From Aurelia coerulea (Eukaryota; Cnidaria; Scyphozoa; Semaeostomeae; Ulmaridae), in assembly GCA_039566865.1 (NCBI GenBank), contig CM076951.1, forward strand, positions 17,989,484-18,053,483: a stretch of DNA of 64,000 nt, written 5' to 3'. A program made the position numbers and the translations under genes. The notes under the pieces were generated by a model that was given only the letters and a program-made list of their open reading frames with translations, searched no databases and was not told the origin of the DNA. Numbering within the stretch: the stretch's first letter is position 1; every line of letters starts with the position of its first letter. Below, piece by piece: positions 1,502 through 60,789 of this stretch.

Positions 1502-2275
1502 AAGATAGGCACTAAATCCTTACTGGCTAAGGGCCTTGTCACGTGACACGCTCTAAAACCAATCAATGGAACGGAAAACTGACCGGGAAATTTGAAAAGT
1601 CAAATTTAGGCCGTTTTTGGACGATTTTACCACCCTTCACCAAAAAAAGATTGTACGGAAGGAAAATTAAGATAATCAAAAAATTTCTTCACAGACCTGT
1701 TCCCAATACTTGAATACATACCTGTTCACGGGGGCTAAGAATTATCTCAAAATTTGGAGAAATGCCAAAGTTTTGAATTTGACCTCACTGACCCCACTGT
1801 AGCATCTCGTAGCAGAAACCTCAGTAAACACAAAAACGTATTCATATGCGTCTGGATACTAACTTATTTGCTTCGAAAGACTTGTGTTATGTGTTTCAGC
1901 ATCTTCAAAAGTTAAAATGATTCCCAGAATTTAGGCAAACGGGCCTATATCCACAAACGAGCCCCCTATATGATCTCGAAACACCTTCAAAACTACTTCA
2001 AAACAGGCCTAAAACGGCCAGTATCCTACGGTCACTCACCTTCCTTCTTTCATGACGTCGAAACCAGTATGGATACTCGATGAACCACCATTTCGTCACA
2101 GCACAGTAATCTAATATCTCCTTTCTTGGTCAAATCTTTCTTTTTTGAGAACGAAGTGTTATTTGCGAAACTCTCTCTTTTTTGTACGCGTCAGACCGCC
2201 TCCAAGAGTCTAGGGTAAAGACGCAAAAATGGTCAGTGTTGGTTTTGCTTATCACGTCAGCATTTTTGCTTCGAG
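1502..2275 (+). repeat. Left terminal inverted repeat of element A
   Basis: Nearly identical, in reverse complement, to 21960-22731. Similarity is continuous from the terminal AAGATAGGC to a block around 2245-2262 (matching about 21975-21995), after which the two sides diverge. Confidence 0.9.
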
Positions 2276-2295
2276 ATTTGCCAAGATTGAGAATT

Positions 2296-2589
2296 GTTCG
2301 AAGTTTTTCGCTGTTTAAAATGTTTAATATAAATAAAACAGGACACGGGAGAGCAAAGATATGTTCCAATGCTAAACACGAAGAATGGTTTAGCTCTTCC
2401 GACTATTTGATTGATCTAGGTGCCAGGCTTGGCAGAGCCAATGTTTTTTCAAGAGCTTTCTCGATAAGAAACCCGAAGAGGCAAAGGAGTCACGAGTTCT
2501 GCATTCATTGCTTGATAAAGTGTCTCACGAAAAGGAGTTATACCTCAAAGCTGCCAGCAAACTATAAGAGTCTACCTTCTTATACAAAG
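2296..2589 (+). pseudogene. Possible 5' exon of the element A transposase gene, decayed
   Basis: One frame reads EEWFSSSDYLIDLGARLGRA. A second frame then takes over with a charged reading (KPEEAKESRVLHSLLDKV, then KELYLKAASKL) that runs into a stop just before a good donor (AAAG|GTAGGT at about 2589). The amino-acid composition and the switch of frame suggest the N-terminal exon of the downstream gene with one frameshift and one stop. This rests on composition and position only. Confidence 0.35.
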
Positions 2590-3027
2590 GTAGGTCGTTT
2601 GTGGTTTCCTCTATTTAAGATCGAATACTATCATATACACTTATTTTTTATAAGAAACTGCTTACAATAAACTCAGGTGAGATCGCCAAAAATTTAGAAA
2701 CTCAAGGATGGTTTCCTTTATTATCACTTGTTTCCTGTATCATATTACTCAATTGGAAAGGCTTCAAAACACCTTGTTTTAAAATTAAAAATCAGCACGC
2801 AGTACGTCACAGACAGGGACCTGAGCAAGCAACGTATGCCCTCTTGACCAAGACAAAAATGCAGGTAATAGGCTTTTGCACAAATTTGATTGTTATGGTA
2901 TTTTATTCAATCTATGTTACAAATTTTCAAATTCAAAGTATTGTATGAAGGTCGTTTCGTTGACTAGGCAGGAGTAGGACTTTGCAAAAAAATTTCATTT
3001 TCATTTAGGCCCTTCTTTATCTCACAG

Positions 3028-6000
3028 TTGCAAGCAATACTGGCAGGGTACATCGAAATATCTTCCAGTGACAGTGAAACATCACAGGCTGGCAGCATAT
3101 CAGTGGAAAGCTCCCAATACGACACTGCTGAGGTAAAGACAGAGGAGACTCCTGCCATAGAAGCTGAAGGCACAACTGAAGTAGAAACTGAGGAACAGAG
3201 GACAGAAGCCCGTTTTGAAGAGGTTACGATTGGGGGCATTGAGTATTGCCTAGTCCCGAAACCAATGGCAGGTTATGTGCCAACTGTGCAACCAACTATA
3301 CAATACATGGAGGGCATTGGTGCAGTCGAGGTTGGAAACAACTTTCTCTATGTACCTACGAACTTCCTTCCTCGTGTGGTAAAAAATTGTGGATGGCAAC
3401 ATTCATTTGCAAGAAGAAGTAGAATTGTGTCGGTCATATATGTGGTCAAAGTATGGACGTGACGAGATTCCACCTTTTGACCCCGATTCATTCCAAGATA
3501 TATGTGAAGCAGCAGGATCAAAAAAGCTGTTTACTGCTATCAAGTCTGCAATGTCCACAACTCGTCACTCATCAGAGAAACAGGAATCAAATGAAAAGAG
3601 ATGCGTTGCTGTGATTTACATGCTGATGTTTGGACAGTCACAAAGGGCAAATTGGTTCCAGAAAGTTATGTCGAGTCAAGTTGTAGCAAAAGGAATTAGT
3701 GATACTGGATTATCCCTTCTTAATAACAGTGGAATTGCAACTTCTAAGGCTACTCAAAGACGAGAGCGACAAAAATCAGCTGAAAGCCATGCCCAAATTG
3801 TTGAAGAATTTATCGCTGAAGCAGTTAGTCAGCAAGATTTACTTGTTCTCATGATAGATGACTTCACAAATATCCATACAAAGCGCAGGCCCAAAGATGA
3901 AGTCACATCAACTGCTCGTAGCATGGCTACAATTATTCTGAAGAGGTTTAAGAATGTCCCAGCCATTCCGGTACAGAATGGAAAGATCACCAGACATCCA
4001 CACGGCGTGGACAAGGATTTTTTAAAGGAAATCACAGTGAGTAGCTTAGATAAGCTTTCGAATCCATATGCTTCAACCATGCCAAACTGGATACGTGCTG
4101 CCTTCTTTGACCCAGAAATGGAAAGGAACAGAGTTGATGACCATGATTACCAGGTGCAGCAATCAGAGATACGATCAATGAGGAGTATGAAGGACTGTAG
4201 ACTGATCGATGAAATAGAGCTACCACTGAAAAGTTTTCAAAATTTCCTACAAGCAGCTAACCATGCAGTTAGCCAAGGTCTTGGTCAGTACCTTAATAGT
4301 TTCATTTGCCCTCAACCTGGTGACTGGCCAGCACAATTTTATATGAGGCAATTGACATACAATATCCCAGCTGATGCACCTTCCTGCATTGAAAACATTG
4401 TGCCATTCATTGGACCACTGCACATGCAGTTGAATGCAAGGGAGTGTGTGTGCCTTCTCAATATTGAGTTCTTTAAAAGAGCATACAAGTGGATCTTTGG
4501 GAAACATAAAGTACTTGCAACAAAGCCAAAGGCCTGGCGAATATCTTTGGTTGAAGAGGTGATTTATGGTGGCTGGACTTTGATTCGTGATCAGGTTTTG
4601 TTTGTATTTGCACAATGCAAAGACATTCAGTACCTGACACTCTTGAATCTTCTAGACAATTATCTCCCCTTAGTCCTGTCAATTTATTCTGTCATATTCA
4701 AATGGGGGAACACTGAGCAGTACAATGATGCAATGTTCAGATGCTGGGTAATGTTCCTGTGCTTCAAACGACACCACTACAACAAGGCCCCTCTTGTGTG
4801 GCTGAGTAACTTTTTGTTCTGGAAGAAGCAAGATCACCCTTTGTATCACACAATGATGCAATACCTCAATGCTTTTGATGAGTATCCTGTTGAGAACTTT
4901 CATTCCATACTCAGGGCTCAGAGTTGTGAAGATGACACTCCTGAACTGCTGTCCCAAAAGGCAAAAGCAGTGGATGGAAATAAAGTTAATGCAGCTAACT
5001 TCTCTTCAGTGTTTTTGACAGCCAAGAAGCATACATTCAGCAGGGCAAAGCTATCAGAACTAAAGCTTTGTGCAGCTAAATTCATTTGCAATACATTGGA
5101 TGAAATAAAGAACAATCCACAAAGTGCAATACAAGTACCCAGGCCTAGGGGAAAACAGAAAAACATGACCTATTGGAAATTGCCACAGCTGTATGGACAA
5201 GAGACTGTTATTGCTTCAAAAATCCTTCCTCTTGGGTTCCAGTTCATTGGTAATGAACCTGACCCAAAAAAGTTAGTACACATTATTTTTTATTTAGAAA
5301 CTGTGAGTCCAATTCTTAAAACTGTATGTAGAATCACAAGCACACTGCTACAGAAAAATTGAAATGACCAAGCAAATGGTTTAGCACAACATATAACAAT
5401 TAAAGGCAGTTCTCCCCTTTTTCATACTCAAATTCTTAAGAATTAAGCTTTGTAGAAAATGCAATGGACAGTGATTAGAGTTTTCCTCTGCGATGGATGA
5501 TATAATCTACTTTGCATCATTTCTGCAAAGAGAACCATTTTGGCTTATCATGAGGGGCTGTCTTTAATGACTAATGTTGGATTTAAGTCATTTCAGTAAC
5601 CTCATGTTTCTCATCTTACTGATGTAGGCAATGAATATTGGGATTCCATTTGGTGCCAAACATGTTCATGCTTGTTCATTAGAGTGTGGCCAGCCTGAAT
5701 CAGGGGTGGCGCTAGAAATCTTGTGACAGAGAGGCAGGGATGCTAAAATGACTATGAAATGCAATTTTTTAGATAACCCAGTATTTCTTTTGAAAGGGGG
5801 CTAAGTTCTGCTGACAGATGTAGCTCCTGGTCCTACCCTGGTGCCCATTCTGGCTTCAATTCCAATGAGATTTTATAAATGTAAGCTTTGAGCCTTGCAC
5901 AAACCCTTTAAATTGAATGACCAGAGATAAATGGCATGGTATATACAAAGAAAAACCTAGCTTTGACTTGCAAAAACATGACCAATAAAGTAGCATAGCT

Positions 6001-6575
6001 TTTAGCTTGCAGGTAAAATCAACTTGAAAGTGGCAGTGTACAGAATTGCAAATTTTTCAAGACCACATTTTCAAAGTATCAGTTTTAAAGTTTGAAGTTA
6101 ATGATTCCTTTCCATAATAAAATCTTGTGTACCTCTGCAGGGCCAGAATGGTAGGCTGAGGTATATAGATTTTATTACTCAAGAGACGTGTCCAATGGTT
6201 ACATGATTTTGCATCATTCCTAGGGCTTGTGACCTCACAGATTGCAAGAAACAGCTTCACAATGCAGAAATTCTTCATGGATGTGGACATTCATTCCATG
6301 CAACATGCATGCCTTCTGCACAGCGTATATGTATTATTTGCAAAGAAGGATTGATAGCGGCGGTAGAGTCACTTTCAGAAATAGCATCAGAGACCATCTG
6401 CAACTCTGGCTATGAAGAAAGGTCAGATGCTCCCCAAAATGAAGAAGGAGACGATGAAGTTGCTGATGATGATGACATTCCAACTGAAATGGAGCAAACT
6501 GAAGCAACCATTGCAGGTGCCCAGTTACAATTACAGAATGAAATTTCCAGTTGGGGAATCATCCCAGGCCCTTGA
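3028..6575 (+). pseudogene. RING-tailed transposase-like gene of element A (frame-shifted)
   Basis: Exon 1 runs from an acceptor (CTCACAG|T, exon from 3028) to a donor at 5272 and exon 2 from 6224 to the stop at 6573-6575. The joined codon across the intron is in phase. A run of six A at 3381-3386 needs one more base to join the acidic N-terminal part to the long downstream frame (3389-5271), so the copy is frame-shifted. The long part has conserved-looking blocks MIDDFTNIHT, PGDWPAQFYMRQ, FIGPLHMQLN, NAFDEYPVENFHSILRAQ. The spaced Asp, GPLH and Glu blocks recall a DDE-like nuclease (DUF6589-like), but I cannot confirm the fold. The C-terminus is a RING-type finger: CDLTDC, GCGHSFHATC, CIIC, followed by an acidic tail. 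Many similar multi-copy ORFs occur in cnidarian genomes. Likely the element's transposase with an E3-like tail; the biochemical role is inference. Confidence 0.65.
5272..6223 (+). other. Intron of the RING-tailed gene
   Basis: GT at 5272-5273 and AG at 6222-6223. The split codon AA|G gives Lys-Ala-Cys, so the reading frame passes cleanly from the transposase-like part into the first zinc ligand of the RING finger. No other gene seen inside. Confidence 0.7.
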
Positions 6576-9500: not shown

Positions 9501-11157
9501 TTTTAACCCACAGATGAGTAAACTTCGTTGGAACGTGTTGTAACTATCTATTTTGATAAAAGGAGGCAACAAAATTTTTTAAGCCATAGAACATGCTAAA
9601 TAATCTCTTGAGCATTTGTTCAATGGCATAAGACATTTTGTTGGGGTGTGGGTGTAGGGGTGTGATGGAGCCCACAATTTGCGTAGTTACTGCATGTTCC
9701 AAGATATTTCAACAGGAAGTAGCATTCTGTCATTATTTTCGTCTTCATGCACAACAAAACAAGTTCAGAAAAAGTTTTCCTTGTCTCAGAAAACAATGGT
9801 TCCTCCTTATTCAATACAATATAAGTTATAACGTATCAACTCGATGGGAACTCGATTGGAACTTAGTTCGAAACATGAACGCATAAGAACAACAGGAAAG
9901 AAAATTTCCATCAAAGGAAACATTGCATTTTCTAATTTTGTTCTGATCAAAAACGATTTAACGGTTTTTTCCTCTTTCTCCTAACTATAGTCTTAACACA
10001 AATTTGTAATGGTCGAATTATGAAAATATGAAATCAGAAAATATTATCTGCAGTATTGCTAGTCGATCAATCTGGAATTTCTTATTGGCATCTGTTAGAA
10101 AGAAAGGATGCCTTTTCCTCTGCAAACAATTTTTCTGCTTCCTTACAATACCCACAAGATATTCTAATGTTAAAACTATCAACCTTCACTACGAAGAAAC
10201 TCTTATGAGAAACCTGCAAAAAGAAGAAACTGCTTGCATACAACTTGCTCTGCTTTTTTTTAAATAGTGTACTCGATGTACATGAGAGAGTTTTGGTGGC
10301 TGTGTTGAGTATGCATGCCAGTGTTTCTTTTGTATTGATGACAGCTCATATTAAACCAAATTTAATGACCGTATTCCATCTAATGCAAACCCAGCTTCTT
10401 ATAAACAGTCCCTACCTTAAAAAGGAACAAAAGAGGCGCCTACCAATTAAAGACCCTCACTACGAGAATGTTTGGTAAATGGAAAATGAGCAAGGAAATA
10501 GAAGCAGGAAAATGTATTGTCTGATACTTTTTTGCCTAGGAATCGGAAGAAGATCCAGACAGTAGTGGTTTACCATCTTTATATGCACCCTTCAACATAA
10601 TCTATTTTGATAATCCTAACTGGGCATCTAATAGACGAAATACGGTGTTTTTACATCTAAAAATTTCCTCAAAGAAACTGATTTACCAACAATTTTAAAT
10701 GAAGAAAAATATGTGCAATTTGATCATACGACTGTTGTTTTTATTTAGATAAATAAAATCTCCACAACCATGGTATGTTACAATACAAATTGCACCGCTC
10801 ATTTTTCTTCCATTTTAATTGAAAATAGATATTCAACAATTCAAACTACCTTATTCGTAACTACCTACACAATTCGTAATTAAAGATTATCTCGACTGTT
10901 TCTTTTTTACTATTGTATTTTAATTTTGAAAATCTCATTGAGTAGAAATGCGATGTTTAGAGAACATTAATTGTAAAAACGAAGCATATGATGAGAGTTT
11001 CAATTTTAATTGTGTTTGATTCTATATTGGGCAAGGCAAGAATTCATTCAAGAAGTAGCAGCCCAGAAGAAATATTCCTTGGAAAAGGAAAATTGTAGTT
11101 AGGTCCAACAAAAAAAACCTGAATTTAGTTGGATATTTTTCCAAACTCAAATATTAA
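6576..11157. other. Interior of element A without recognisable genes
   Basis: No convincing coding exon was found. A 23-bp direct repeat (GGATTCACAGAAGACTATTG followed by CGT) occurs at about 7468-7490 and 7496-7518. At 7860-8170 there is a compositionally distinct block of short G-rich phrases (GTGGGT, GGGGGCTTGGGGTGG) that looks like a degenerate repeat. The rest is AT-rich, without clear inverted or tandem structure. Confidence 0.5.
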
Positions 11158-11340
11158 AGTGCTCCTGACATAAAATATGTTTTTAGCTATACTGGTCATT
11201 TAAGGTGTTGTGAAAACGAATAAGGCAAAATAAAAGTTTGAAAATGCACAGAAAAGTAGTAATTCGCCAAAGAAATATCTGCACTTCATGATGTTTTGCG
11301 GCTCCAGAGCAAACGCGGCCAATTGCCTCGTTTCCATGTT

Positions 11341-11358
11341 GTGACGTAAAGCGCAGGA
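11341..11358 (+). promoter_or_regulatory. Shared 18-bp promoter motif of element B, left copy
   Basis: GTGACGTAAAGCGCAGGA lies about 40-50 bp upstream of the transposase ATG at 11394. The same 18 bp lies on the minus strand at 20453-20436, upstream of the second gene. It contains a TGACGT core like a CRE/ATF site. Mirror placement upstream of both starts suggests a common promoter element; it could also bind the transposase. Confidence 0.6.
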
Positions 11359-11393
11359 GAAGGAAAGGTTAGTTGGGAAGTAATACTACCGAG

Positions 11394-14300
11394 ATGATGG
11401 AGGGAAGTGGTACAAAAAAGCGAAAAGGCGGTAATGTTCATTGCGTTGCTGGCACACCGAACAAAAAGTCATGCACTAATACCAGCAAGAATGAAAGTAT
11501 AAAATTTCATCTCTTCCCATCTGATCCTGAAACTCGGCGTCGATGGAAGAACTTCGTACAAAGGCATAGGCCAGGCTTTGACCCTGACAAATTCTCACGG
11601 CCACACTTATGCTCCGCACATTTTGAGCCAAGCTGCTACTCTAAGAGGTTTTCTGGCACACTGGAGGGATTCGACTCGTCAAATACGAAATGTTTTCTAA
11701 ACCGGGGATCCATCCCAACCATCGATGCAATGCCGATGGATTTGTCGCTGGAGCCAAGTTCGACGACGAGTAGGAGAGAGGCGAGATTGGTGAGTACTAT
11801 AAAATGACACTTCACTGACGGCTGTTCGTATTATCCCACTTTTTGCCTCTGTAATTTTGATTTTAATATCTTACCCAGACTAAGGTGTGGATGTGAAGTA
11901 AAAGAGAGAATCATTTTCAGACTTTTGTTGTCCAAAAAGAAGATTTAATTTCTATGGAATTATGGTAGTGGTTGACAGTTGTTGCAAAATTTATTGCAAA
12001 ACTATAACAGGGCTAAACAAGCCAAAAAATGTGAGATGGCTATCTCTGATACAGTGTGAATAGAATTTTCTGCTTTGTATCGCACAGCCCCCCCCCCCCC
12101 CCCCCCGTCCCCCGTATTATGTATGAAAAATTCCTCACAAACAAGTTTTTAATTGGTTCTTCCTTATTTGACAGCTTGTCAGGAGTGCTTTGAAAGACTC
12201 TGAAGGATCAAATGTGTGTGAAGAAGAAGGAAGAAATGTGTCAAATCAATCTACGTGTGTTGATATGGAACAGCCTGAAGAGTGCAGCAGTGAGGATGTC
12301 ATAGAGGAAAATGTAACAGAGACAGCTGACGTATTCGAAACTCCACAACATCGCTTTTCCAAGGAAGTTCAAGTTAATATTGCAAAATGTCTAAAATGTG
12401 ACAAGTATATAAAACAGAAAAAAAATTTGACAAAAAGAATACAGCGCCTAACTGCTAAAGTTACAAGACTAGAGATGGTGAGTATGGTGTAGTAATTTTG
12501 GAAAAAGTAGTAACTTTGTATTTTGTATAGACTCTTCACTGTTTTTCATCAATTCTTATAAGAACATTTTGCAACTAAACCAAAAAGATGCCTTGGAGAG
12601 TACAAAATGCCATTGATCAGCCATCTGTATGGAAAATCCTCATTGGTCATCTCACATGGAATTGAAGAGCCTTTCAAGATGCAATGTAAACCCCAACATA
12701 CACAGTATGAATACCAAATAATAACATCAATTTTGTTTGTTTTTTGTTCTTCAGCATAGTAAAGATCCTACTGTGAGTGACATGGCCCAGAGCAATGAAA
12801 ATGATTATTCTGATTATGATGATGACACCGATGATAGTTGTAGTAGTGATGGTTATGATGATGATACAGAGAGTGATGGTGATGATGAAATTGATAGTGA
12901 TGACAGTTATGATGAAGAGATTGAGTTAGAATGTGATGAAGTGATGTTTGACTCGGACGAAGATGTTTATGTAGCAAGTGACGAAGAACGAGAAGATGAA
13001 AGTGATGATGATGATGAATTGGAAAGCCCCACAAATAGAAATAATGTCAGGTACATTACATAATTTCAGATATAATACATGTGGACATGGAGGAGGGGGG
13101 GGGGGGGTGAGTTAACTCCTATATAATTTTGTATACATGTGCCTGCCAGGGTTATGGTTAGTTTAGGACATTTTTCCCAGGTTATGGGCCTCATTTTGTG
13201 AATGTTTGCCCTGTCCATGGGTTTGCTTCATGAGGACTTGCTGTTATGATGAGCCTTGGGTGCTTTAAAAGCTCCTGTGCAGTGGCAGACACTAAGGGGT
13301 TTCATTTTCCAAATTTTGCCCTGGTTCTGGGTCCCCCCTACTGGGTTCTCACAGGCACAACTGATGAATGGAGGATGGAAGACCACAAACAATTCTTTGA
13401 ATAATTTTTTGAATAGTTTGTGATTTTCCAGTACAAGGCTCAGAGTGAAAGTTGGAAGTTCAAAAGTGGTGTAAGCTGCTGCTATAATCTTAATTAAATG
13501 TTTCTTGATTTGTTTATCTTATTGTTTTGTATTCCACTTTCTTTCAGAATAAATCATACCAACTTAAGAAGTTATATTTGAGATTTATATTTGTTGTACT
13601 GTATAAGTGTATTCAAGTCAACAGGCACATTTCTTTGATACACCATTGTTTATTTTTCAGGATTGATGCCAATACCTCCTTGGAGACAGAGCCAAAATTT
13701 ATTGTCTTCTACAGTATGCTGCTCAATTTGTTTTCCTTGTTTTGCTTCAAGTGCAGATTAGAAAAGCCTGAAGTGCATGCCAAAAAAAACGGAACAATGG
13801 TTACAATAACCCAAGATTGCCCAAAATGCGGTGAGGCGGCATACAAGTGGAGGTCACAGCCCTTGATCCTTGGGAGCTATCCGGCAGGAAATGTTTTGCT
13901 GAGTTTTGGCATCCTTATGGCTGGTGCCTCAATAAGCAAGGTTCTTTTGGTATTGAGGCACATGGGTTTGTCAGTCATGAATGCCCGCACTTTCTTCAGA
14001 CACCAAAGACACTTTCTGTTCCCAGCAATACTCAAACGTTGGGAGTCATTCCAAGAGACAATACTGGGGAAAATCAAGCAGATGAAGCAAGTTGAATGGT
14101 GTGGAGATGGCCGCTTCGACTCAATGGGCCATTCTGCAAAGTATGGTGCCTACTCTATGTTTTGCACAGCAGTCAACAAGATCGTTCACATTGAATTACT
14201 ACAGGTAATTTTTATGGAATAAAACATGAAAATCCCCCAGAAAATCAGAACCTGGGGCCAACTGGACAACAGAAATCCATCTGTTCCTTATGCTCTATCC

Positions 14301-17300
14301 CAGAAATCATATGAATCTCTATAGAAAGCTTAATAATTTAATTTCAATAAAAAATTATATCAAAAAGTTTTCAAGATACCTAGTTCGCATGGCATCCTAC
14401 CCCTTAATTGGTCCTAGGTCCTGTGCCTGTTTGTCTCTGTACCATAGATATTTTGCTAAATTTGCCTTTTGAATCTGTATTTAGAAGCATGTTTATCCTG
14501 TGTTCAACAGCAGATTGTTTCTGTCATATTTTATGTGGATATCCCATCATTGAGCCTGGTTTCCACTTGGTCATTTTGGTATATTAGAAAATGTTTTTCT
14601 TTATTAAGTCACACAAACTGGTTTCGACATATTGTTTGAATTTTTATCATTTTTCATTATGATTAAGTGAAAATCAGGCTTATCTGCAGATCCTTCATGA
14701 GGCCTTGTTACTCAAATGTATCTGCTATTTTTTGCAGGCAAATGAAACCGGTGGCAGTAGTCAGATGGAGCTAGAAGGAGCAAAACGAAATTTCAGCTTT
14801 CTGCAGTCCAAGGGATTGGTAATTGGAACGTTTATCTCTGACCGACATTTGGGGATTGCCAAATGGATACGGGAGAATCAACCAGCCACAAATCATTTCT
14901 ACGATATATGGCATGTTGCTAGATCTGTCACAAAGAAGCTGCTCAAAGCTAGTAAAGAAAAAGGTTGTGAGATCATTGGAGACTGGGCCAAAGCGATCAG
15001 GAATCATATTTATTGGTGTGCCACATCAACAAAAGAGGGTTTCCAACAAATGATCCTTGCCAAGTGGAACTCCTTTATAAGGCATGTTGCAGACAAGCAT
15101 GAAAATCACAGGGACCATCTTTTCAAGGAATGTGCTCATGCTCACCTAGATACCCCAAGACGTTGGATAAAAATTGGTGAGTTATCTTTCAGTTAACTTA
15201 CACTAAGGGCATGCCACTTCAGGCTTTCGTTTAGCATCACAAGTCCATTGATGATTATCTATTTAAACAACCCATAAGAACCCACACAGCCAATCACTGG
15301 CTAGAATTTTGTACTGTTCTATTTTCCTTGAAGTAGGATTTGCTGTTTTACTTACCCAGAATACAAAGTGTACAAATGAAGTGAATCTAAGCTTCAGGAT
15401 ATGTTGCATATACACTGTTCACTTATTTAAAATCTTTCAGGTGAGCTTGAATAAGATCAGTAGGCCCCTTACAGACAAATTTTTAATTGACACCCTCTGC
15501 TGCAATGAAATATTTATATATATATATATACCTTTTTTGGGTTCAAACGTATCAAGCCTCCTGTTTATACTGGTTTCTATTTGTTAATCCAAGGGACACC
15601 TGAATTTGACAAACTAACAGCCATTGTGGCAAACACAAGGCTTCAAAATGATATCAAACAGTTGTCACCAAATGCCCAAACAAGCTGCTTAGAAGGATTT
15701 CACGCCACTCTCAATCATTGGCACCCAAAGATGTTATGCTTCTCTTGGCTCGGTTCTTACTGCAGGCAAGTATTAAGTCACACAAATTCAAGCATTTAAC
15801 TTCAGGAAATATGATAAAGTTATAAATTGCATCTCTGTTATTGTGTATGGTTTATTTTCAGAAAGATACTGTATCTTTACACCAAAGACCTCCATAAAAA
15901 AGCTGCAGACTAAAGACCTTCAGTTGACTGATTATATGTTTGTAGTTATCGCTATTGATAGACTGATGGATGCTACAACTACGACTCATACCCCTACGCT
16001 TCCAGAAATTGACATTTTGCCTAAATCACCTGCTATTTTTCCTCAAAACCACCAACCCTAAAATGCCACAAAAAGCTGTTTTCCTGAAATGCTAAACTGC
16101 AAAACAAGCTATCAGTAGTTAGATGAATGTAGTTAGTCTAGACCTACAGGCTCATTTTTCGCCAATTGAGAACCTGATGTAAGAACCACCTAAAATATAT
16201 ATGAGCCATTTCAGCCTTTTGCAGAAAGTCACCCACAGGTTCTTTTATGCCAGTTTTTACTGTAACAGTATTCAGTTGAACAGACATAGTCAAATTACTG
16301 TTGTCACCAGTAATTCTAAACACTCTTTAAAACATTTGCCAATTTGACATCCACCAGAAATAAAGTAACCAAATAAGCTTCAAATTAAATTACTTGCTTT
16401 GCCATTTGTTTGATAGCAAAGTATGTTTGGCTCTCAAATTGGTAAAAAAAAAGTTCAGGAAACCCATGACATCAAATACTGTTTGTGTATTATTGTTTGT
16501 ACGGGTTCTATTAGTTATGGTCAAGTTGAGTCTAACCTGATTTCTTTTCTAAATAGACATATTCTTGCAGCCCTCCATTTTAATGAAAATGTGAGAAGGG
16601 AAAAGCAACAAAGTGAAGCAGGCGAAACCATCTACAAAGTCTTCTACCCCAAGTACAAACTTGGTGAAGAAGTCGTACGGGAAGTGGTGAAACCACCAAG
16701 CTATGGTATGTACAGTATGTGCTCAGAAATTTAGCTGAAGCAAAGAATTTTATAGCCTGTGTTGCAGATGGTCTAGGCAACTAATTCCGGCTTCAGGCAG
16801 AATGTGAAAAATGAGACAGCAGTAATTTTTTGCTAACACCTGTCAAAAAGATTTACTGATGACTTTGAGACAATCAGACAAAGTCTACTTACAGTACAGG
16901 CCTTGTGCTCATTTAACATACTGTCTTACTGCCTAATAATTCTTGTTTAGACAGAATGTACAGTCTTTCATATAGCTCAAGCATTCCTTAGCTGATGTGA
17001 AGAATTCATATCATGTTAATGTCAAAAGACCTGCACATGAATTGTTGTCTAGATTTGATCTTATTATTGATTTAGAGCTCTTTGGCTTATTGTTCTCAAA
17101 CTTTATGGATGCTATTTCACATATTGCAGGCTATGTTTCAGAGATTGCAAAATTGTTGGCCAACCATGAAAGCAGGGAATTTAAAGAAATTTCTGACAGA
17201 TACCAGGCAAAAGTACCTCCTCCGCTGTCTTCACAATTTGAGGTAAAACTGACCAGAGAAGAAGCAATTGAAAAATTCAAAGTTCGACAACAGATGGAGG

Positions 17301-18287
17301 CAATTCCCATGTTCCCCAGTGGTAAGTAAATATATGTGTTTTTTCATTGGCTGTATACACAATGTTTGTTATGGTGGCAGTTTGATGTGGAAATAACAAA
17401 ATAAGAAACCATAATGTTAAAACCTAACTCTATATGGAATTTTGCCCAGTTGCTGACTTTTTCTTTGGCAATATTAAATCAGTCCTGGTGTTCCAGAGGC
17501 TGTGGGAAGAGCATGCTGAGTTTTGGTGACTGTACTGGTTTTTGGTTGCACAGATATTTCCTTAGATAGCATGCCCTTTGCATGACATTTTCATTCAAAA
17601 TGAAAAACAGGTGCATACTGTGTATATGTTATCAAATTATATCAAATATTGGATGTATTCTGTCTATTATTGAACTGTAACAAAATAAACTTCAATGAAC
17701 AAAATTAAGTGAATATGTGTATTAAGTTTATTTTCCATAAACAAAGAAGAAACACATAGTACTTTACTCATCTAATGTGCGTTTTGTGTGCAATGTGTTG
17801 TTTTGATTGCCCCTTGAACACATTTGCACAGTGCTTTGCAGTGCACTCTTTTATCACAGGGGAACAAGGAGAAAGTGAAGTCCCTTGTTCCTTGTGATAA
17901 AACAGTGCACTGCAAAGCAGTATGCAGAGTCACGTAAAGGGGCAGTTAAAAACAACACATTGCACAAAAAATACACATCAAATAATAAGTAAATTACTGT
18001 ATACAGTACTGTATGTTTCTTTTGTGCATGTAATACCTGTTAATCAGTGCCCCAGGCAGGTCAACTATATACCTGAGCAGTGTGCTAGCATATTCTTCAC
18101 TTATAATTTCTAATTTCATTCCAAAGTACAAGAGCAAGAGACACTGCATGCAACAATTTCAGTGGCAACACAAGCAGTTGGGGCACAAACTAAGACAAGA
18201 GCACTACCAAGATGCGAGAAATGTGGAGAGCGGACAAAAGGTCACTCAGATGAGAAGTGCAATGAAATCACTCAGCAAAGAACCTAA
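11394..18287 (+). CDS. Kolobok THAP-domain transposase (nine exons, intact frame)
   Basis: Exons read as 11394-11789, 12175-12477, 12755-13050, 13661-14204, 14738-15176, 15594-15765, 16557-16705, 17130-17321, 18127-18287. The sum is 2652 bases, 883 residues, with every junction in phase. The N-terminus is a THAP zinc finger (VHCVAGTPNKKSC, RRRWKNFV, HLCSAHFEPSCY, then a PTID box). A short coiled coil and a very acidic Asp-rich segment follow. The catalytic part has a zinc motif CPKCGE, the Kolobok-type block GDGRFDSMGHSAKYGAYSMF, a second acid in FISDRHLGIAKWIRE and a possible third in SCLEGFHATLNHW. The C-terminus is a knuckle CEKCGERTKGHSDEKC. The protein should bind the 14-bp ends and insert at TTAA. 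The intron after 15765 uses a GC donor. Confidence 0.85.
12086..12106 (+). repeat. Poly-C tract in transposase intron 1
   Basis: A near-uninterrupted run of C ends at CGTCCCC just upstream of the exon 2 acceptor region. A simple sequence tract; its length is probably unstable. Confidence 0.7.
17786..17966. repeat. Hairpin MITE in the last intron of the Kolobok transposase
   Basis: Two nested inverted blocks: GTGCAATGTGTTGTTTT pairs with AAAACAACACATTGCAC. Inside it, TGCTTTGCAGTGCACT pairs with AGTGCACTGCAAAGCA, followed by a further paired block around the GGAACAAGG loop. Weaker pairing continues outward to about 17745 and 18030. It lies between exons 8 and 9, where a pre-mRNA would fold into a ~180-nt stem. 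Confidence 0.75.
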
Positions 18288-19512
18288 ATTAATCAGTTGA
18301 CATTTGATCACATTTGCTTTACAATCGCATAGACAGATTAAATCGGCTGCGGTTTTGTTTATATTCATTTCAAGTCATGTGATCAATCTCTTGATAAAAC
18401 ATATTTTTATTTCTCTAACATATTTTGTGCCATGCAAAGTTGTGCCATGAGTGCAAAATATAGCATAGTACTAAAACTGCCCAAGAGTATGGTCACATGA
18501 TTTGAAATGAGTAAAGCAAACCTAGGCCGATAACGTCTATTTGTATTCTTTTTTCCTAATCTAAAAAGTTGGTTAGATCAAAGTATTATTCCTGCAAAAA
18601 AATGTCTTGAAACATATGCCATTTATGAAAGGAATGTAGCATTCTGGCATGTCATTGCTGTTCATATTATGTCTGTTTGAGGCACTTGTGCTAAATATTT
18701 TTTGGGGAAAAGCTATCATTTCAGTTGATCTCGGTTGTTTTGAAACAAAAAATAACTATCCCCCCATTTGTGGGAGCCACTACACCCCTTTACCCCTTGT
18801 GCCTTTTCATAAAAACGTGATATAATAATGTGTATATTAATTTGGGAGATAGTTTAGTCTCTTTCCTCTGGTGCTGCATAGCCAGTAGAACGGCCTGTGG
18901 GGTATTTTCTCCTAACGTAGTCATATATGCATGCTGGCATAGGTCTTGTATGATCCCAGCCCATGTAACCAAAGAGGTATCTCGCTACCCATCTGTAAGC
19001 AACAGCTCTAAGGTACCTACAATTAAAAGAGATTACAGTGTGAAGCGGTTTTAAAGTTGAAAGTTGTCCAGGAAAAATTGCAACTTTTTAAACGCTAAAT
19101 TACAATTCGCACAGCAAAATGGTTGCTGAGCCGGTATTCTTGAACAATATTCACTATAATCTTATGTTTTGAGACAAATAAACCATTTTTCTTGCTAAAG
19201 TATTGTGCTACAGTTCTGTATATGTAAAGAAAAACAAATAAATAGCAGTGGAGCCACTGTATCTTAATTCATGCACCCAAAAATACTGTAAAAACATATC
19301 AAGAAACTTTTTGAAGTGAAAAGTGGAAACTTTAATATGAATGTTCAATACTGTGGGCTGATCCAAGTTTCTTATACAAAAATGTGTTAGTTGTATATAT
19401 ATGTGTGTGTGTTAGTTAAATCAGCTATTATTTGACCTATAGCAAGATCCTTCAAACATATTTAAATACTTGCTCTGCCCTTGCTGTTTGTTTTTTATAT
19501 GCTATACTTTAC
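18288..19512. other. Intergenic space between the two convergent Kolobok genes
   Basis: AT-rich, no coding exon recognised. Contains the 3' ends of both genes and a short TATATATGTGTGTG stretch at about 19395. Confidence 0.5.
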
Positions 19513-20395
19513 TTACTCATTTTGTGATACTCCTGGGCGCTTTCTGTAATGTTTCCCACCCTTGGTCTTCAGCAGTGGTCCAACTTGGAGGAGAACAGCA
19601 GTATTTGTCATGGCAAGGAAATCCTCATGTTCTGTAGTGCATGAAATTCTTTCAATACTGCCGTCAAACTGCAGTTTTCCCAATGCCTCATTTACTTCCC
19701 AACACACTTAAATTCTCTTGCTCCAACCAACTGCTCATCACTGCACTTTCTACATGAACACCTGTCAAGTCAATGATGAGGCAAATTTAGCAACTGAATG
19801 GCAAATAAGTCAAAGGGGGAATTTCGATGAAATGAGAGAGCAGCCCAAAGACTGTTGAATTTGTTGCTCCCGTTATACCAGCAAACCTCTACCTTATTTT
19901 AGTGAAGTATTTGAGTTCAGTGTCAGCCAGTGAATTTGGTTGTTTATTTACTCCAACCATCAATAAAATTTGATTATTGATGGCCTGGCCTAGATAAGTG
20001 CTGCAACATCAAAAAGATTGTCTGAATAAAAAGAGAGAGAGAGAGAGAGAGAGAGAGCAGTCAACGAAATAAAATATAGAAAGCATAGAGCAGTAATATT
20101 CTCACATTTCCTATCAACAGTTACAGAAACTATCAAACACTTACCAGGAATCAACAGGCCTTTCTCTCTCGTACCGTGCTTCGATGGTTCTGAGCGTTAG
20201 GCCGTCTTCGTCTCTCTCTCCTTCGCCTGCTTGGTGTGGTTCTTCTGCGACCTCTGCAGGATCTGCCAGTGGTTCATCTTCGTATGGCCTAAACCTTGTC
20301 TCAAAGACCATTTCATCATTATTTAAACTTTCTTCGGATTGTGCGGAAACAGTGCTTCGAAAGCTATCGTTACTGATTTCACTTGCTGACTCCAT
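19513..20395 (-). pseudogene. Second Kolobok gene: P2X7-C-like zinc module protein, one frameshift
   Basis: Exon 1 is 20395-20145 (start MESASEISND, acidic, Glu/Ser-rich) and exon 2 starts at 19761; the split codon rebuilds Trp in phase. The read continues DSWCSCRKCSDEQLV and reaches EFKC. A shift of frame at about 19705 is then needed to continue as CWEVNEALGKL and ERISCTTEHEDF. This W-C-x-C-x2-C, then CC-E, then C-x-TEH pattern is the cysteine arrangement of the cytoplasmic C-terminal zinc domain of vertebrate P2X7 receptors and of many cnidarian proteins. No receptor part is present. The gene ends tail-to-tail with the transposase. The frameshift may be decay or an assembly error. Function in the element is unknown. 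Confidence 0.65.
20025..20056 (+). repeat. (GA)n microsatellite
   Basis: Uninterrupted AG dinucleotide run inside the intron of the second Kolobok gene. Confidence 0.8.
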
Positions 20396-20435
20396 AGTTG
20401 CTTCACGCTTCTGACCTTTACAACAAATATTTCCT

Positions 20436-20453
20436 TCCTGCGCTTTACGTCAC
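20436..20453 (-). promoter_or_regulatory. Shared 18-bp promoter motif of element B, right copy
   Basis: Reverse complement of 11341-11358, exact over 18 bp, lying about 40 bp upstream of the ATG at 20395. See the left copy. Confidence 0.6.
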
Positions 20454-20641
20454 GCGCTGACAACAAAGCCACATTCATTCCCAGACCTCGGCGCCACTTT
20501 CACTACCCTTTCGATGAATTTAAAACCCCCCAAAAGGAGGGAAAGGGCCAGAAATATTTAAATTTAAATGCGTTTTTCGAGAGGATCAGCCTCAAATTAT
20601 CCTACAAGCGCTTAGTTGATTTCATGTCAGGAGCACTTTAA

Positions 20642-20864: not shown

Positions 20865-21607
20865 TTACTGTCCACCATTTGCCAACATGGACAGAAGAAC
20901 TTGCCCTACCATAACTACTCTCGGATCAAAACTATCTACATTGAGATGAGGAGTCAATGCCCTCCCTCTGCCAAAGCTAAGACCCCTCCCTCTACCCCTT
21001 CCTCTTGCAATTCCTCTTCCTCCTGTCTCCCTTGCCCGCCTCCTCGTCACAATGAATAACCTTTCCTCCTTCCTAGAAAGAAAATGTTATGTTGTTATGT
21101 CATATCAAAAATTAAAAACTCAAAGATGAAAGAGAATGAAAGTGCAAATGTAACTTTATTAACAATTGTAAGCATCATGTATGGATTTTATCATTTGAAA
21201 AATCTGATGAGTGAGTGCATCAATCCAAGATCGACCAGCAGGTTAAAACATTTCTGGAAAAGTTACTAGTAAGACTTACAGCGCATTTCTTGCCCATCTG
21301 CCATTTTCCTCAGTGCTAAAAAAAATGTCTTTTGGTTCCACATTGAAAACTGATTTTACTTTTTGTTTGAGATCCCTTATTGATTTCGTCTCGATTTCCT
21401 GAAAACAGAAGTCGAAAAATGTTATGATAATGTTACGAATGATAAGAGGGGTTTCATTTTCGTAGCATGCTGAATGAAACTGAATTGAAAACCACAGGTG
21501 CAGGATATTAAAATAATAACAAATTCACATACTTTTTCGTCTTCTCCATAAACCACTTTTATTATTTTGTTCGTCGATGTACCGGTGGTGTTATCATACG
21601 AGGCCAT
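20865..21607 (-). CDS. Ubiquitin-like, RG-rich protein gene of element A
   Basis: Three exons on the minus strand: 21607-21533, 21398-21280 and 21072-20865. Both junctions are in phase with GT-AG ends. The read starts MASYDNTTGT, then KIIKVVYGEDEK | EIETKSIRDLKQKVKSVFNV, PKDIFFSTEENGRW, RLFIVTRRR, and ends in an RG-rich tail (GIARGRGRGRG). A beta hairpin followed by a helix of the form SIRDLKQKV and a PxDI loop looks like the first half of a ubiquitin fold. No C-terminal GG is seen, so conjugation is not implied. It lies just inside the right TIR and faces the RING-tailed gene. The last exon runs into a MITE remnant beside the Kolobok insertion, so the true 3' end may be lost. Confidence 0.55.
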
Positions 21608-21710
21608 CTGTAGGAAAGAAAGGGTCAGTTAGCTCCATGGAGGTTCATTGCTGATAAGTTTCAGAAGGGGCAGGAAACTGAATGCGGATAATTATAACAA
21701 ATTCACATAC

Positions 21711-42006: not shown

Positions 42007-42828
42007 TTAAAGTACTATCTTAAGTCCTTGCCTCTCAAACTCTGAACAGTCGTCTACCGTTAAAAAGTTTTTTACTTCGGATATGTTGATATCATCTCCT
42101 TTGATGTCTTGTTTTGCCGTTTCTAAACAGGCTTTCTTAACACAGAAATAATAATTTCGAGATCCTTGCAGCCAACCTTGTTCTTTTCGGAAAAATGGTC
42201 TTGGCCCGTAGTTTCCAACGAAAAATCTTTGTTGGATTGCACCATTTTTCTTAAAGGGGGCTTTGCATTCCTCGCATCTTACTGGCCTTGACTTCGTTGT
42301 GGTCATGATCATCTTCATGTCATGCATTTGGCCTGGTTCTCTTCTCTTCCTTTTCTCCGGCTCTGCATTGGTCTTGCCACTCTTTGCAGCTACTGGCGTC
42401 GATGCCATGGATGGCTTCATTGGGGAGAGGGGCTCCATTGGCGCAAAAGTACTCTCGGCTAGAACGAGCAGGCATGAGGCACATTCGAAATCATCTGCAC
42501 TTGCCATTTCATCTTTTCTCCTGCATTTGTTATGAATCCATCTCTGGCATGATACGCAAGATTTCTGAAATTAAAATTTCAGATTCAAGTTTATCAATGG
42601 TGGAAAGGAAACGAACTGAATTTACATGAAGCAGAATTGTTTTTTTGATAAAGGAGAATAGGCGTTATGTGAAATTCCTTTTGAGTAGAGTCAATTAAAC
42701 TATTATTATTGTTGTTCTCATTATAATCATTAGGTGATATTTCTTATCATTCAGTTTCATACAGTTTTCTGATGCCATTTTTCAAGTACTGAACTGAATC
42801 TGTAATTTGTGAATAATGTGGGATAATG

Positions 42829-45340: not shown

Positions 45341-45680
45341 ATCCGGTATTGATGCATACTACGAGTCTTTTTACTTATTGCGGACATAGGTTGCATCATA
45401 ATCACTGAATGTTAAATGCGCTGCATCATAATCACTGAATGTTAAATACGTCTGATGTTTATGTTGTTTTTGTCAACCGCATTAACCATTATTGTCTCCC
45501 TTTTCGAGAAACGAAAATAAAAGAGCATCTTTGCAGGGTTCATTTTTGCTTATTGCGGACATAGGTTGCATGATGAATAGGTCTGATGTAAAGGAGATGA
45601 AGATAATTTTATGATTTGCGAACCGTATGAACCATTATTGTATTATTGTCTTTTCGAGAAATGAAAATAAAAGAGCATCT
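45341..45680. repeat. Short direct duplications in a Ginger intron
   Basis: GCATCATAATCACTGAATGTTAAA occurs twice in tandem (about 45393 and 45423). TTATTGCGGACATAGGTTGCAT recurs at about 45375 and 45548. AAAATAAAAGAGCATCTTTGCA recurs at about 45514 and 45664. The pattern suggests local segment duplication. Confidence 0.6.
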
Positions 45681-46149
45681 TTGCAAGGTTCGATTCTGTC
45701 CTACATAAAAGAAACACTGAGTAATAAGGAAAATCAAGTAATAAGATAAGAGCTGATCGATTACCTTTAGTGTGAAGATCCCACAGTTGTAGCTGTCGCG
45801 CTGCTTTGGATGGGTAATTGGAAGAAAAGTCCATGAAATGTCACGAACACCAAGATCATTTACTCTATTGCGCCAGAATAATCTGAAAAAGCAAAATGGA
45901 CGTTATTTGGGGAAATACAGCATGTAGTTTTGATCAGCTGCTGTGTGCAAGGAAGCTGAGCAGGATACGTTTTTACGAGTATACAGCAAAGTGAAGGAGT
46001 AAAACAACAGCAAAACTTTGGGTCGTAAGTCCGAGAAAGGAAGGATGAACCAAAGGATTAACATTTTTGTGCAACGGTTTCGGATTCCGTAGAGGGTATA
46101 GCATTATAAACCACATTTGTGTAATGGGAAATAGGCATGTTGCAAGCCT

Positions 46150-56400: not shown

Positions 56401-56783
56401 ATTACAAACAAACTGCCCCTCGAAGGCCACTTAGGCCCATTAATTTTAAATCTCATGATCCCAAAGTTTCATTCAGAGCTACGAAGTCTATTTTGGTACA
56501 GAATTCATGACGAGAGAAAGTTTAACGTATTAATTGCCAATATCTACGAGAAGCACCTGATAAAACTTACCATAAAAGATTTCCGTGTTTTCCGCGTTTT
56601 CGAAAATCACCCATAGCCAAAACGAAAACGTGGAAAACGCGGAAATTTCTTTTTTGTCTTCTTGGTGGAATATTTGGCTTATCAAGGAAGGTCTCTTACC
56701 TTTATTTTAGTTGAATAAGCGCTATTTCTGGCCATTCAAAATCTTCACATGTTTTTCCGCGCTTTCCGCGTTTTCGACCTGGC
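53485..56783. repeat. 3.3-kb foldback inserted in the Ginger integrase core
   Basis: Ends GCCAGGTCGAAAACGCGG on both sides, flanked by a 12-bp duplication CTTTCTCTGGAG (53473-53484, 56784-56795). Arms of about 0.9-1.0 kb pair and are themselves built of tandem ~320-390-bp units, each with GAAAACGCGGAAAAC words and a CTAAGTGGCC phrase. The spacer is about 54600-55730. It separates APEK from VLTDQG in the integrase, just before the second catalytic Asp. The target frame runs about 28 codons into the insert before a stop. Confidence 0.88.
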
Positions 56784-57089
56784 CTTTCTCTGGAGCACCG
56801 TGTCGACAGAAAAGTTTCACAAGGCATTGGGCTGTCTCTTTTGCGGTTTTGTCCGGAATGGGGAAAGCTTCGACCCATTTGGTGAAGTAATCTGTGCATG
56901 TAAAAATATACTTAAATCCCCTTTCAGTCGTTGGGTAGCTTCCCATCAGATCGATCCCAAGCATCTGCCATGGTTTTGACACCTAAAAGATTAAAAACCA
57001 CTGGATGGAATCACTTGCATTGGATGAAATGTTATCATTATCATTGTCAATCAATTTCTTGAATTAAATTTGCATGGGGGTGTGCCCAC

Positions 57090-57345
57090 AAGAAATTTTT
57101 CAGAATGTTTCACTCCCTCCAAATGATAACCGATTCTAGAAAAAAATGACAAAGGATACTCGCAAAACATAAATATTTGACCGAAAAACGGCCCGATCAA
57201 ACAAAATACCCCCCTTTAACATGTGTTCACAACCAGCGCTAGAAAAAATTGGTGAGAACGATACCCTGAAAACGGTACACCCCCTTCGGACAAATACTCT
57301 AAGTATTCCCCCCACCCCCACCCCCCTTCCACCGGAGGTTCTAAT
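57090..57345 (-). repeat. Dispersed repeat, second copy
   Basis: Homologous to 43840-44150, ending in the same C-rich tract. In the Ginger intron between 57611 and 56982. Confidence 0.6.
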
Positions 57346-57968
57346 TCATTTGTTCAACCAGATGCTCTACAACTAAATACATGTATCAACGACCAATGAA
57401 AAGCATCGACACTTGAGTCTCAACCAGAGATTTTAATATCCAGCCAGCCAATCATAGGCAATCACATCAATTTCTATATGATGAATTATCAAATCACGGT
57501 TCAAAGAAATTTAAACTTTTTCGCAAGCAGTTTTAAAGATAAATGTTCGTCAAGCGGACTTGTAGATTAGATTACAGACCTCTATCGCAGTAAGCATAAT
57601 ATGAACTTACCGTTATGCACTCCAATTCCACGTCAATGTTTTTCAGCGGTGGGCCAGTCCTGTAACACTTTTGACACTGCGAACGCTGCAATAGAGAGCC
57701 TTTCGTGAAATAGGGAGAATCAGCAATTGCTTACCAGCAATAAAGTATGCATGTCATTTTATTGGTTTAAGCGCAACAAAAAACAAGCATATTATTTCAT
57801 CGGAAACTACGTGTATACCGGATGAGTCAAAATTGGCTCATGATGGATGAAAATAATCTTGAAGTTACAGGCATTACAGGCATGAGACTGCCATTAATTG
57901 CAGATGAAATGATTTTAAGGTTGTTGCTTCATTGGTAACTGTCTACTGTTGCAAAAAAAATATATATA

Positions 57969-58600
57969 CCGGGTGCCCCAAAAAAATGGATACGGATTTG
58001 GTTGACTCTAGCGCTGTGAATTTAGCTTCAATCGATGTTTAATCATTCTGAAAATGTTCCTCGATAGTTAACTTGAACACAGGTACATCGTTTGTGGATA
58101 TTGGTGCTTTGTGCCAGGACCGTCGAGAGGGGGGAGTAGCCAGGGTAGTTACCAGGGGGCCCGGGGTATGTATTTTTTATTTGCTGTAGTTTTCTTTCAG
58201 GAACATTTTCAGGCCCGCGGGCCCAATTAGATTCTAAATGAAATCTAAAAGCAGCGTTTTACCAGTGCACAAGAGGGCGTGGCTCAAGGACAAAAGGGCG
58301 TGGGCCAAAATTTTCCCACGCCTTCAGTACCGGGGGCCTCCTCACGTCACTGACCCTGGGGCCCGGCCCCTCTCTCGACGGCCCTGCTTTGTGCGCAGAA
58401 ATATTAATCTTGAAAGCTCAAATTTGCCTCCACTTGCAAACCAGAGCTTTAGCCTTTTGACCTTAGCAATTCTGCAGGCACAGCGTATAAACCAATGATA
58501 GCCTTGAAAAAATTTGAAAAATATTATATCTTGTGTTATTCTTTTTTCCAAAAGTCACCCCTTAGTCACCCATTGAAGGTGGTAAACTCTTTTAAGCAAT
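57969..58600 (+). repeat. Mariner-type repeat, copy B (with nested MITE)
   Basis: Starts CCGGGTGCCCCAAAA after TA and matches 23666-23858 and then 32425 onward. It is continuous across the point where element C inserted in copy A (about 58437-58445), but is itself interrupted by the MITE 58115-58386. Confidence 0.75.
58115..58386. repeat. hAT-type MITE
   Basis: Ends CAGG(A/G)CCGTCGAGAG, flanked by a perfect 8-bp CTTTGTGC (58107-58114, 58387-58394). 272 bp, non-coding. Short CAGGG-type ends with an 8-bp TSD are diagnostic of hAT. Confidence 0.9.
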
Positions 58601-59091
58601 AAATTTGCCTGGAAAATGTAATTTACAATTTTTGCCAATTATTTTAATATGCTTAGGATTCCCACGTTGTTGAGCATCGAGTGATGTATAGTTAAAGTTT
58701 AACTATGTTCCATCGACAGTTTTTAGGGAGAGAGAACCAAATCTCGTACCGTAACCTCCATTCCAAGAGATATGTGATGTACACTTACGAAATACTTTAA
58801 ATGCGTTGTAATCCCTTTCCATTTGTACCGACTGCATATTAAGTCCTCAGTATTATTGAAACCACCATGCCCACCAATGCCACTGTCATGAAATTGCTTG
58901 AAAATCTCTCTGGCCGCCTCTAATGTACAGACAGCTTTAAGCATCACGGCATTGCTTCTTGATCGCTCATTTTGCGATTGTTTGAAATATAACGTATTTC
59001 CTGGAGATGATATTGTTTGTTTAGGTACAGCATTCTATGCATAGCAGCACATAGCCTGCGTGCAGAGTTTACTATTGTGGAGGAGTTAGAG

Positions 59092-59379
59092 CAGTGCCGG
59101 AGCCACGGGGGGGGGGGGGGGAATGGGGGGGACAATTCCCCCCACTATTCTCTGAGGTCACTCTTCCAATTCGTCTAAATCCGTTGAGAAAATGTCTTAG
59201 GAGGGGTTAGGTAGGTATCTTTAGAGCTTGATAGCCAAAGAAGGGTGTTTCCTTAGGGCAAAAAGAGCGTTTCTTGAGCATAAAAAGGGCGTGGTCCTGA
59301 AAATTTTCCTGGGGGCTTCGCCCACAGACACCCATCTTCCTTCGTCCCCTCCACTTTTTTGAGGCTGGTGCCGCCACTG
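59092..59379. repeat. hAT-type MITE
   Basis: Ends CAGTGCCGGAGCCACG and TGGTGCCGCCACTG, flanked by the perfect 8-bp AGTTAGAG (59084-59091, 59380-59387). It is inserted into one arm of an older inverted repeat (about 59045-59091 against 59505-59550). The interior has a long G run at 59108. Confidence 0.88.
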
Positions 59380-60196
59380 AGTTAGAGGCGAACAGGATTT
59401 TCCAGCCTCGTTCCCAGGCCCACCATTGTCTTCCTTATAGGTCATTGATGTTCAGTACTGATGTAAGAAGCTGGCCCTAGGAACCAGGTTGAGGATTTTC
59501 CTTTTTGCCTCTAACTCATCCACAATAGTAAAGTCTGCACGCAAGGTATGCAGCATAGGGCTCAAATCTCTCAAATCTTTATAAAGGTGGGTGTAAAATT
59601 CTATGCAATATTTCTTCGAATTAAATGACTTGAAATAAACTTATGGTACTTTGCTGTTAATCTGCCTTGGAAATTTTCAGATGTTTTGACTTTTTGTGAA
59701 AGATGTTTTGACAATTTAATTATTTTTGAAAAAAATCATGAAAGATTTTGAAAAAGTTTAAATCATCGTAAATCCTAAACCAATGGAGGGAAAATTATTT
59801 ATTCTGCAAGGAAAGCATAGTTTATGAAGGTCTACAATATGGTGGCAAGCAGGAATCTGTAGCATTTCTGGTTTAGGATTTAGACATTTGATGACGTAAT
59901 AGCCTCAAATTTAATAAATGCCACCATTTTGAAACTATGTTCAACAGCAGATGTACAATAACGAGCCCTAAGTTTCTTCCAAGCCATTTATTTCAAAGAA
60001 AACTGTTACTGATTTTTACATCGACCCTTTTAACGATTTGAGCCCTATGTTTATGCATAGCAGAACTTTAACTATTTCAAACACAACATGAACACAGTCT
60101 AAATTTTGCAAAATTTTCTTCCACAAAAAAAGGTTGTGTGACAATGAATTTAAGTATCAAAACAGTACTCCAAAATGTCCCTGTATGCTCGATAAG

Positions 60197-60248
60197 GCTA
60201 GCCTGTGTTTCAGACCAGACCATGGATTGGAGTCTGGAACACGGGCTA
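60197..60248. repeat. Short hairpin
   Basis: CTAGCCTGTGTTTCAGAC pairs imperfectly with GTCTGGAACACGGGCTAG around an 8-12 bp loop. In Ginger intron 1. Confidence 0.6.
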
Positions 60249-60789
60249 GATAAGGCTTGCACGGTGACCCAACCTCGTCCCCAGGCCCTTTAGTCATGTT
60301 GACGTTGAGCCTCACTTTGGCGAGTAAATCAAAGAAAGAAGTGCTTTCCCAGATATAGCTTATCATATAAATGTTTGTGAATGATATTAGTAATTTTGTG
60401 ATTTTGTAACAGGCTCTATAACAATGCCAAGTCCCAGTATATACCTCCAATGTATTACCAAGATACCCCCCCCCCCCAGAAATCTTGTTTAGCTGTGCTA
60501 CATTCGCTTATAAATATCGCTTACCTTCCAATGAATACTTTGAGGCATATCGGCGCAGACTTCTCCTTTTTGTTGCAGTGTTGCAGTCCTCTGGATAGAA
60601 GACTTTTCCCTTGCTATCATCCTTCTTCTTCTTGAGAAAAGTGAAGACATCCCTCATCAGTTTGAAGTCGTCTTCCATACATTTCAATATGTTATCAGAA
60701 TCGTTTTCGTTGACTTTTTCCTTCTCTTTCGATTCTGCAGGGTCTTCCATGTTATTCTCCGAACTCATCCTTTCTCGATCCAAACTCAT

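Follow-up and report, generated by a model that had tools for sequence, protein, structure and literature searches.

The window analysed here is a stretch of 64,000 nt (C9:17989484-18053483) from the 574-Mb genome of Aurelia coerulea. It contains an IS3EU-type transposon (element C) and a larger transposon with long terminal inverted repeats (TIRs), referred to as element A or, without the Kolobok transposon nested in it, outer A. With a probability that we estimate at about 0.7, ubiquitin-conjugation modules are inherited components of both of these DNA transposon lineages, which are unrelated to each other; putative roles are considered below. Element C would be a two-gene transposon, in which an integrase-like transposase faces a HECT-type E3 ligase that has apparently been inherited together with it over deep divergence. 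Outer A would code for a ubiquitin-like protein and for a transposase-like protein of DDE type with a RING finger fused to it; longer relatives of the latter add a tegument-like deubiquitinase to the same polypeptide, which would place both writer and eraser on the transposase itself. This reading is based on sequence and predicted fold, on the open frames with their linkage and co-divergence, and on the catalytic residues. The coordinates of the features are given in Table 1.

The left end of element C reads TATGGAGGCCC.. at 23859 and the right end ..GGGCCTCCATA at 32424, and both are flanked by AACTAG. The element thus has TA..TA termini, a 6-bp target site duplication (TSD) and an integrase-core transposase, in agreement with IS3EU elements, for which TA..TA termini have been described together with a TSD that is usually 6 bp long (PMC10045372). 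The two genes are convergent, each beginning just inside one of the terminal repeats. In addition to its PF24764 match, the integrase yielded PF00665 with an E-value of 3.5e-7, slightly below the Pfam cut-off. In the other frame a HECT fold with N- and C-lobe was found, and the catalytic cysteine is present in 30/30 rows of the protein alignment, with the reservation that row P0024 diverges there and its C is possibly misaligned. Element C encodes a predicted HECT E3 ligase with presumed ligase activity. The named relatives of this protein are cnidarian (Porites, Desmophyllum, Dendronephthya and Paramuricea). One public protein (P0081) consists of a PF20700 Mutator-type piece and part of a HECT-family protein, ends before the catalytic cysteine, and represents either a real fusion or a gene-prediction artefact.

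Among the 132 HECT matches that the genome yielded, 20 loci with a long single open frame were chosen, the integrase not being considered, and 10 kb around each of them were read using the window copy of the integrase as query. An integrase relative was found within 10 kb at 17/20 loci. Within a fixed scoring slot of 3 kb, located 2-5 kb downstream of the start of the HECT match, it was found at 16/20 loci, in all 16 cases on the opposite strand (convergent), whereas the same slot yielded none in 12 control HECT genes (Fisher p 1.6e-5, near-copies being included in both the 16/20 and the test). The controls have several separate matches per place and were taken as multi-exon host genes; two of the 12 (on C1 and C3) also have long frames, and the control slot was counted from one exon match and may fall inside the gene. 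Pairing was measured as HECT loci with integrase, not as the fraction of rva_4 elements with HECT. All integrase frames tested were PF24764 (7/7). Under the strict requirement of TA..TA termini and an exact TSD of 6 bp, two of the 20 loci (L011 and L012) showed defined ends, and an extension added TA..TA ends at L028, which are one of three candidate pairs there.

The catalytic column holds C in all 17 aligned HECT-integrase pairs, window included. For the distance test, three near-copies were removed (groups L009/L010/L028 and L023/L024), which reduced the 17 pairs to 14, and L015 was omitted due to its short integrase frame. HECT distances and integrase distances are correlated over these 14 pairs (Mantel r 0.695, p 0.0001), with HECT identities down to 17%. 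This co-divergence looks like the pattern expected from long co-inheritance of a two-gene element. A first-pass annotation of the window had placed a HECT ligase with catalytic cysteine next to an IS3-type integrase, and both the integrase profile and the conserved cysteine bear this out.

Outer A (1502-22731) has 754-nt ends and the 9-bp TSD ACCATGGAG on both sides; further copies of its left end occur elsewhere in the genome. Short elements, e.g. C14:16880100-16882864, share ~400 nt of its terminus at 90% identity and are likely non-autonomous derivatives. The first gene (gene1) has 219 homologs in total, the 120 listed being used for homolog counts, and its named protein relatives are cnidarian (Rhopilema, Dendronephthya and Oculina). 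The predicted structure of the relative P0169 matches the transposases of Hermes (hAT) and the P element as well as RAG1, which suggests a similar fold for the gene1 core; RAG1 also has a RING. Regarding classification, a 9-bp TSD and long TIRs are typical of Mutator-like elements, and both are present. Gene1 gave no match to the Mutator-type PF20700 in Pfam, this domain being located in the nested Kolobok, nor to any other Pfam transposase, and a Pfam scan of all plus-strand frames of 2150-10551 yielded nothing useful. The TSD of hAT elements is 8 bp. Outer A differs from hAT, P element and RAG1 in its TSD, its long ends and the lack of a Pfam transposase match; membership in any of them is not claimed.

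The RING exon of the window copy fits the C3H2C3 pattern and matches the family hidden Markov model (HMM) with an E-value of 6e-17. Among 10 gene1 copies chosen from 68 genome matches, a RING exon follows the core in nine, the exception being L053. Compared with PDB, the RING family profile yielded 42 matches, nearly all with RING or E3 names. (Note that the HMMs for RING and deubiquitinase were seeded from P0169, and that counts within the family depend on it.) Longer gene1 relatives extend the polypeptide by a herpes-tegument-like deubiquitinase domain of the viral tegument-like deubiquitinase (VTD) kind, the VTD fold being seen in the predicted structure. A 1041-aa frame elsewhere in the same genome (L054), the only three-domain frame read among several deubiquitinase matches there, comprises transposase-like core, RING and deubiquitinase domain. 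In the deubiquitinase domain, the catalytic cysteine is conserved in 18/18 relatives and the histidine in 14/15. In both L054 and P0169 a Cys-rich stretch, read as zinc-ribbon-like, lies between RING and deubiquitinase domain.

The ubiquitin-like gene of element A has three exons and a 133-residue product. Its exons yielded 23 matches at eight genome loci, and at five of these, window included, the gene is convergent with a gene1 core 8-16 kb away. At four loci the first exons lie 946-949 nt from an outer A end. One of these four is located in a 13.1-kb stretch between two outer A ends (C9:20019702-20032789) and has no gene1 there among the matches listed, and the other two loci have no nearby gene1 among the matches listed; the genome search for gene1 scored 67 of 514 candidates. 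Because several of the loci are on one chromosome, they need not all be separate insertions. That the gene is part of element A is firmer than its profile identity. Its first exon is doubled in the window (21512-21893, copies 86-94% identical), and as three other C9 loci also have two first exons, these may represent a pair of alternative first exons.

Table 1. Features of the window (positions count from its first letter).
Feature	Position	Strand	Remarks
Left terminal inverted repeat, outer A	1502..2255		743/753 aligned positions match right end
Gene1, N-terminal part and DDE-type transposase-like core	3025..5271	+	tblastn with family members
RING exon of gene1	6224..6575	+	
Kolobok nested in outer A	11154..20641		TTAA target duplications, short inverted ends
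KolX-like (P2X7-tail-like) gene of Kolobok	18857..20395	-	PF20478 E 0.015, below cut-off, last exon
Putative ubiquitin-like gene, RG-rich tail, first exon in two copies	20868..21783	-	exon reading
Right terminal inverted repeat, outer A	21979..22731		
Element C, IS3EU type	23859..32424		TA..TA ends and 6-bp TSD AACTAG
HECT-type E3 ligase (predicted), open frame	24107..26140	+	677 codons
Fold-back repeat between both element C genes, nested	28444..30435		593-nt arms, 89%
rva_4 integrase/transposase, open frame	30523..32136	-	537 codons; PF24764 E 2.8e-71
Cys-rich, possibly PHD-like piece, 3' side of Ginger1-like gene	42007..42570	-	PHD E 0.11 only
Ulp1 (C48)-like exon, Ginger1-like gene	45609..45902	-	PF02902 E 0.021, below cut-off
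Integrase core and H2C2 zinc finger pieces, Ginger1-like gene	56722..59034	-	PF00665 1.9e-4 (below cut-off), PF17921 3.6e-8

The Kolobok inside outer A has TTAA TSDs and ends of the form 5'-RR..YY-3', and contains THAP and PF20700 transposase pieces. Its TTAA-bounded ends rule out THAP/PF20700 as the transposase of outer A, and likewise the KolX-like gene, which has one frame change near 19700, as an outer A gene. Because Kolobok owns these three, outer A is left, among the genes found, with gene1 and the ubiquitin-like gene. The Ginger1-like gene shows the Ginger1 trait of a Gypsy-like integrase with H2C2 and rve; a convincing flanking pair of terminal repeats was not found in the window. Here the first-pass annotation had reported an Ulp1-type protease fused to the integrase; the gene contains an integrase, an H2C2 finger and, with a profile match below the cut-off, an Ulp1-like exon. 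A Pfam scan of all minus-strand frames of 41700-51301 yielded nothing useful. A plus-strand frame at 46049-46591, inside the Ginger1 span, resembles the end of a non-LTR (non-long-terminal-repeat) reverse transcriptase, and a minus-strand frame at 1112-1411 resembles a C-terminal piece of a RecQ-type helicase. A tandem array with a 51-bp unit and at least 10 copies occupies 36154-36965, with other arrays adjoining at 36980-37300. In viral contigs, no relatives of the HECT protein, of gene1 or of the element C integrase were confirmed, and in prokaryote genomes no HECT relative was confirmed; these searches may omit near records.

Several observations weigh against the inheritance of these modules as element parts. 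L015 has an integrase only at the far edge of the 10 kb. Defined ends are known for only 3/20 HECT loci, and L009 and L010 gave no TA..TA even after extension. In the window, gene1 changes frame near 3373-3388, in its N-terminal part, though the terminal repeats of the element are 98.5% identical; several element A copies are on one chromosome and are possibly segmental duplicates. The gene1 RING scored 15.9 bits against zf-C3HC4 (cut-off 21), below the Pfam cut-offs. Neither the window gene1 (best E 1.2, segments of at least 20 aa) nor the 3 kb around any of the 10 gene1 cores yielded a deubiquitinase domain. At the acidic position of that domain, Glu is found in 10/15 and Asp in 5/15 relatives (one of the 15 being without His), whereas Asp is invariant in the published family. 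The ubiquitin-like assignment is supported by weak profile evidence: an E-value of 0.031 against a ubiquitin fusion, no match to a Pfam ubiquitin family, and no homologs in the protein collection at E 1e-3. Regarding element A, the first-pass annotation had described a transposase-like protein ending in a RING finger and a convergent ubiquitin-like gene; the RING is upheld by the family HMM, if below Pfam cut-offs, and the convergence by five of eight loci, whereas the ubiquitin-like identity is weak in profiles. Regarding profile searches for all modules, HECT was found, and the matches to RING and C48 were below the Pfam cut-offs.

A chance capture of a host HECT gene, or of a fragment of one, by a single element copy, or mere proximity of the gene to that element, is largely refuted and very improbable. 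There are many HECT matches genome-wide, and three HECT frames (L014, L017 and L020) have no integrase in the 10 kb read, which counts against the pairing; but the same convergent order recurs at most loci and in none of the controls, the TSD-bounded elements include the HECT gene, HECT and integrase co-diverge, and the catalytic cysteine is intact. Even less credible is the argument, made in the first-pass annotation, that finding three such elements in 60 kb already speaks for convergent recruitment. The window does contain three different kinds of carrier, but the genome has many matches to gene1 and HECT as well as multiple copies of the outer A ends, so that adjacency in a window rich in transposable elements needs no special cause. 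What survives of that proposal, a repeated association with unrelated transposons, draws its support from recurrence across the genome (16/20 versus 0/12 for HECT, 9/10 for RING, 5/8 for the ubiquitin-like gene).

The RING might also serve the transposase as a zinc-binding module for structure, dimerisation or DNA contact, and not act as a ubiquitin ligase. Such a function, which would agree with the weak Pfam scores and with PDB RING matches at E 0.011 or worse, we regard as unlikely: the C3H2C3 spacing is kept, nearly all of the PDB profile matches are named RING or E3, and the deubiquitinase fold carried by longer relatives in the same protein points to ubiquitin. A stronger contender, if short of even odds, is that the modules counter host ubiquitin- or SUMO-dependent silencing rather than steer the transposition reaction. 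Unrelated elements repeatedly carry Ulp1 and deubiquitinase modules (PMC2836005, PMC9741609), but HECT and RING ligases add ubiquitin and do not remove it. The present data do not separate both roles, and a role in transposition and one in counter-silencing appear similarly likely.

If the modules are inherited element parts, the targets of E3 and deubiquitinase may be transposase complexes, or repair or silencing factors of the host at the insertion site, by which the lifetime of the transposition complex would be set or host repressors would be removed; an element-borne ligase would fit timed turnover of the complex as well as removal of repressors. Bao et al. proposed a link to DNA repair (PMC2836005), whereas PMC9741609 proposes protection from degradation of proteins needed for transposition, or the overcoming of a limit on transposon inheritance. 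It has some appeal, but is doubtful, that certain DNA transposons of cnidarians operate a ubiquitin cycle of their own, with RING and deubiquitinase on a DDE transposase, some relatives encoding a ubiquitin-like protein, and IS3EU elements with HECT as an obligatory second transposition gene. The old remark that Ulp1 or OTU occurs in some transposons would become a testable rule on ubiquitin modules in unrelated DNA transposons, namely that ligase and deubiquitinase modules are kept over deep divergence and lose few of their catalytic residues. With two-gene IS3EU elements, the need for ubiquitin control in transposons could be tested directly, and HECT-bearing transposons may account for the single-frame HECT genes annotated in cnidarians. 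In short, transposons may come equipped with protein-tagging tools of their own.

The idea of ubiquitin-pathway modules in unrelated transposons is not new (Bao et al., PMC2836005). C-terminal proteases of the Ulp1 or OTU type were described for Ginger1 in 2010, and the minus-strand gene of the window, which is alike in integrase core, H2C2 finger and Ulp1-like exon, adds nothing to what is already published (PMC2836005). The nested element resembles Kolobok elements with KolX proteins of the P2X7-tail-like kind (PMC9587614) in its TTAA TSD, PF20700 transposase and P2X7-tail-like gene, and is here only a passenger inside element A. Element C shares termini, TSD length and integrase-core transposase with IS3EU and differs by its HECT partner, a term with 0 occurrences in the available text of PMC10045372. 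In a literature search to which Repbase and subscription papers were external, neither IS3EU joined with HECT was found nor transposase, RING and deubiquitinase recognised in one protein; in the available text, PMC8195603 has a HECT domain once in another context, which is not a report of the pairing, and PMC7599744 mentions deubiquitinase only through the title of a cited work about deubiquitinase-like domains in a Helitron. PMC9741609, in which VTDs are described mostly from Helitrons, comes closest to a precedent for the transposase-RING-deubiquitinase protein, since it reports cnidarian VTDs fused to several transposon-associated domains and, in mushrooms, fusions of VTD with an RBR ligase. 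Compared with these, the gene1 relatives are alike in predicted fold, catalytic cysteine and acidic-x-His motif, and differ in that the domain follows a RING and, before it, a transposase-like core, and in the frequent replacement of Asp by Glu.
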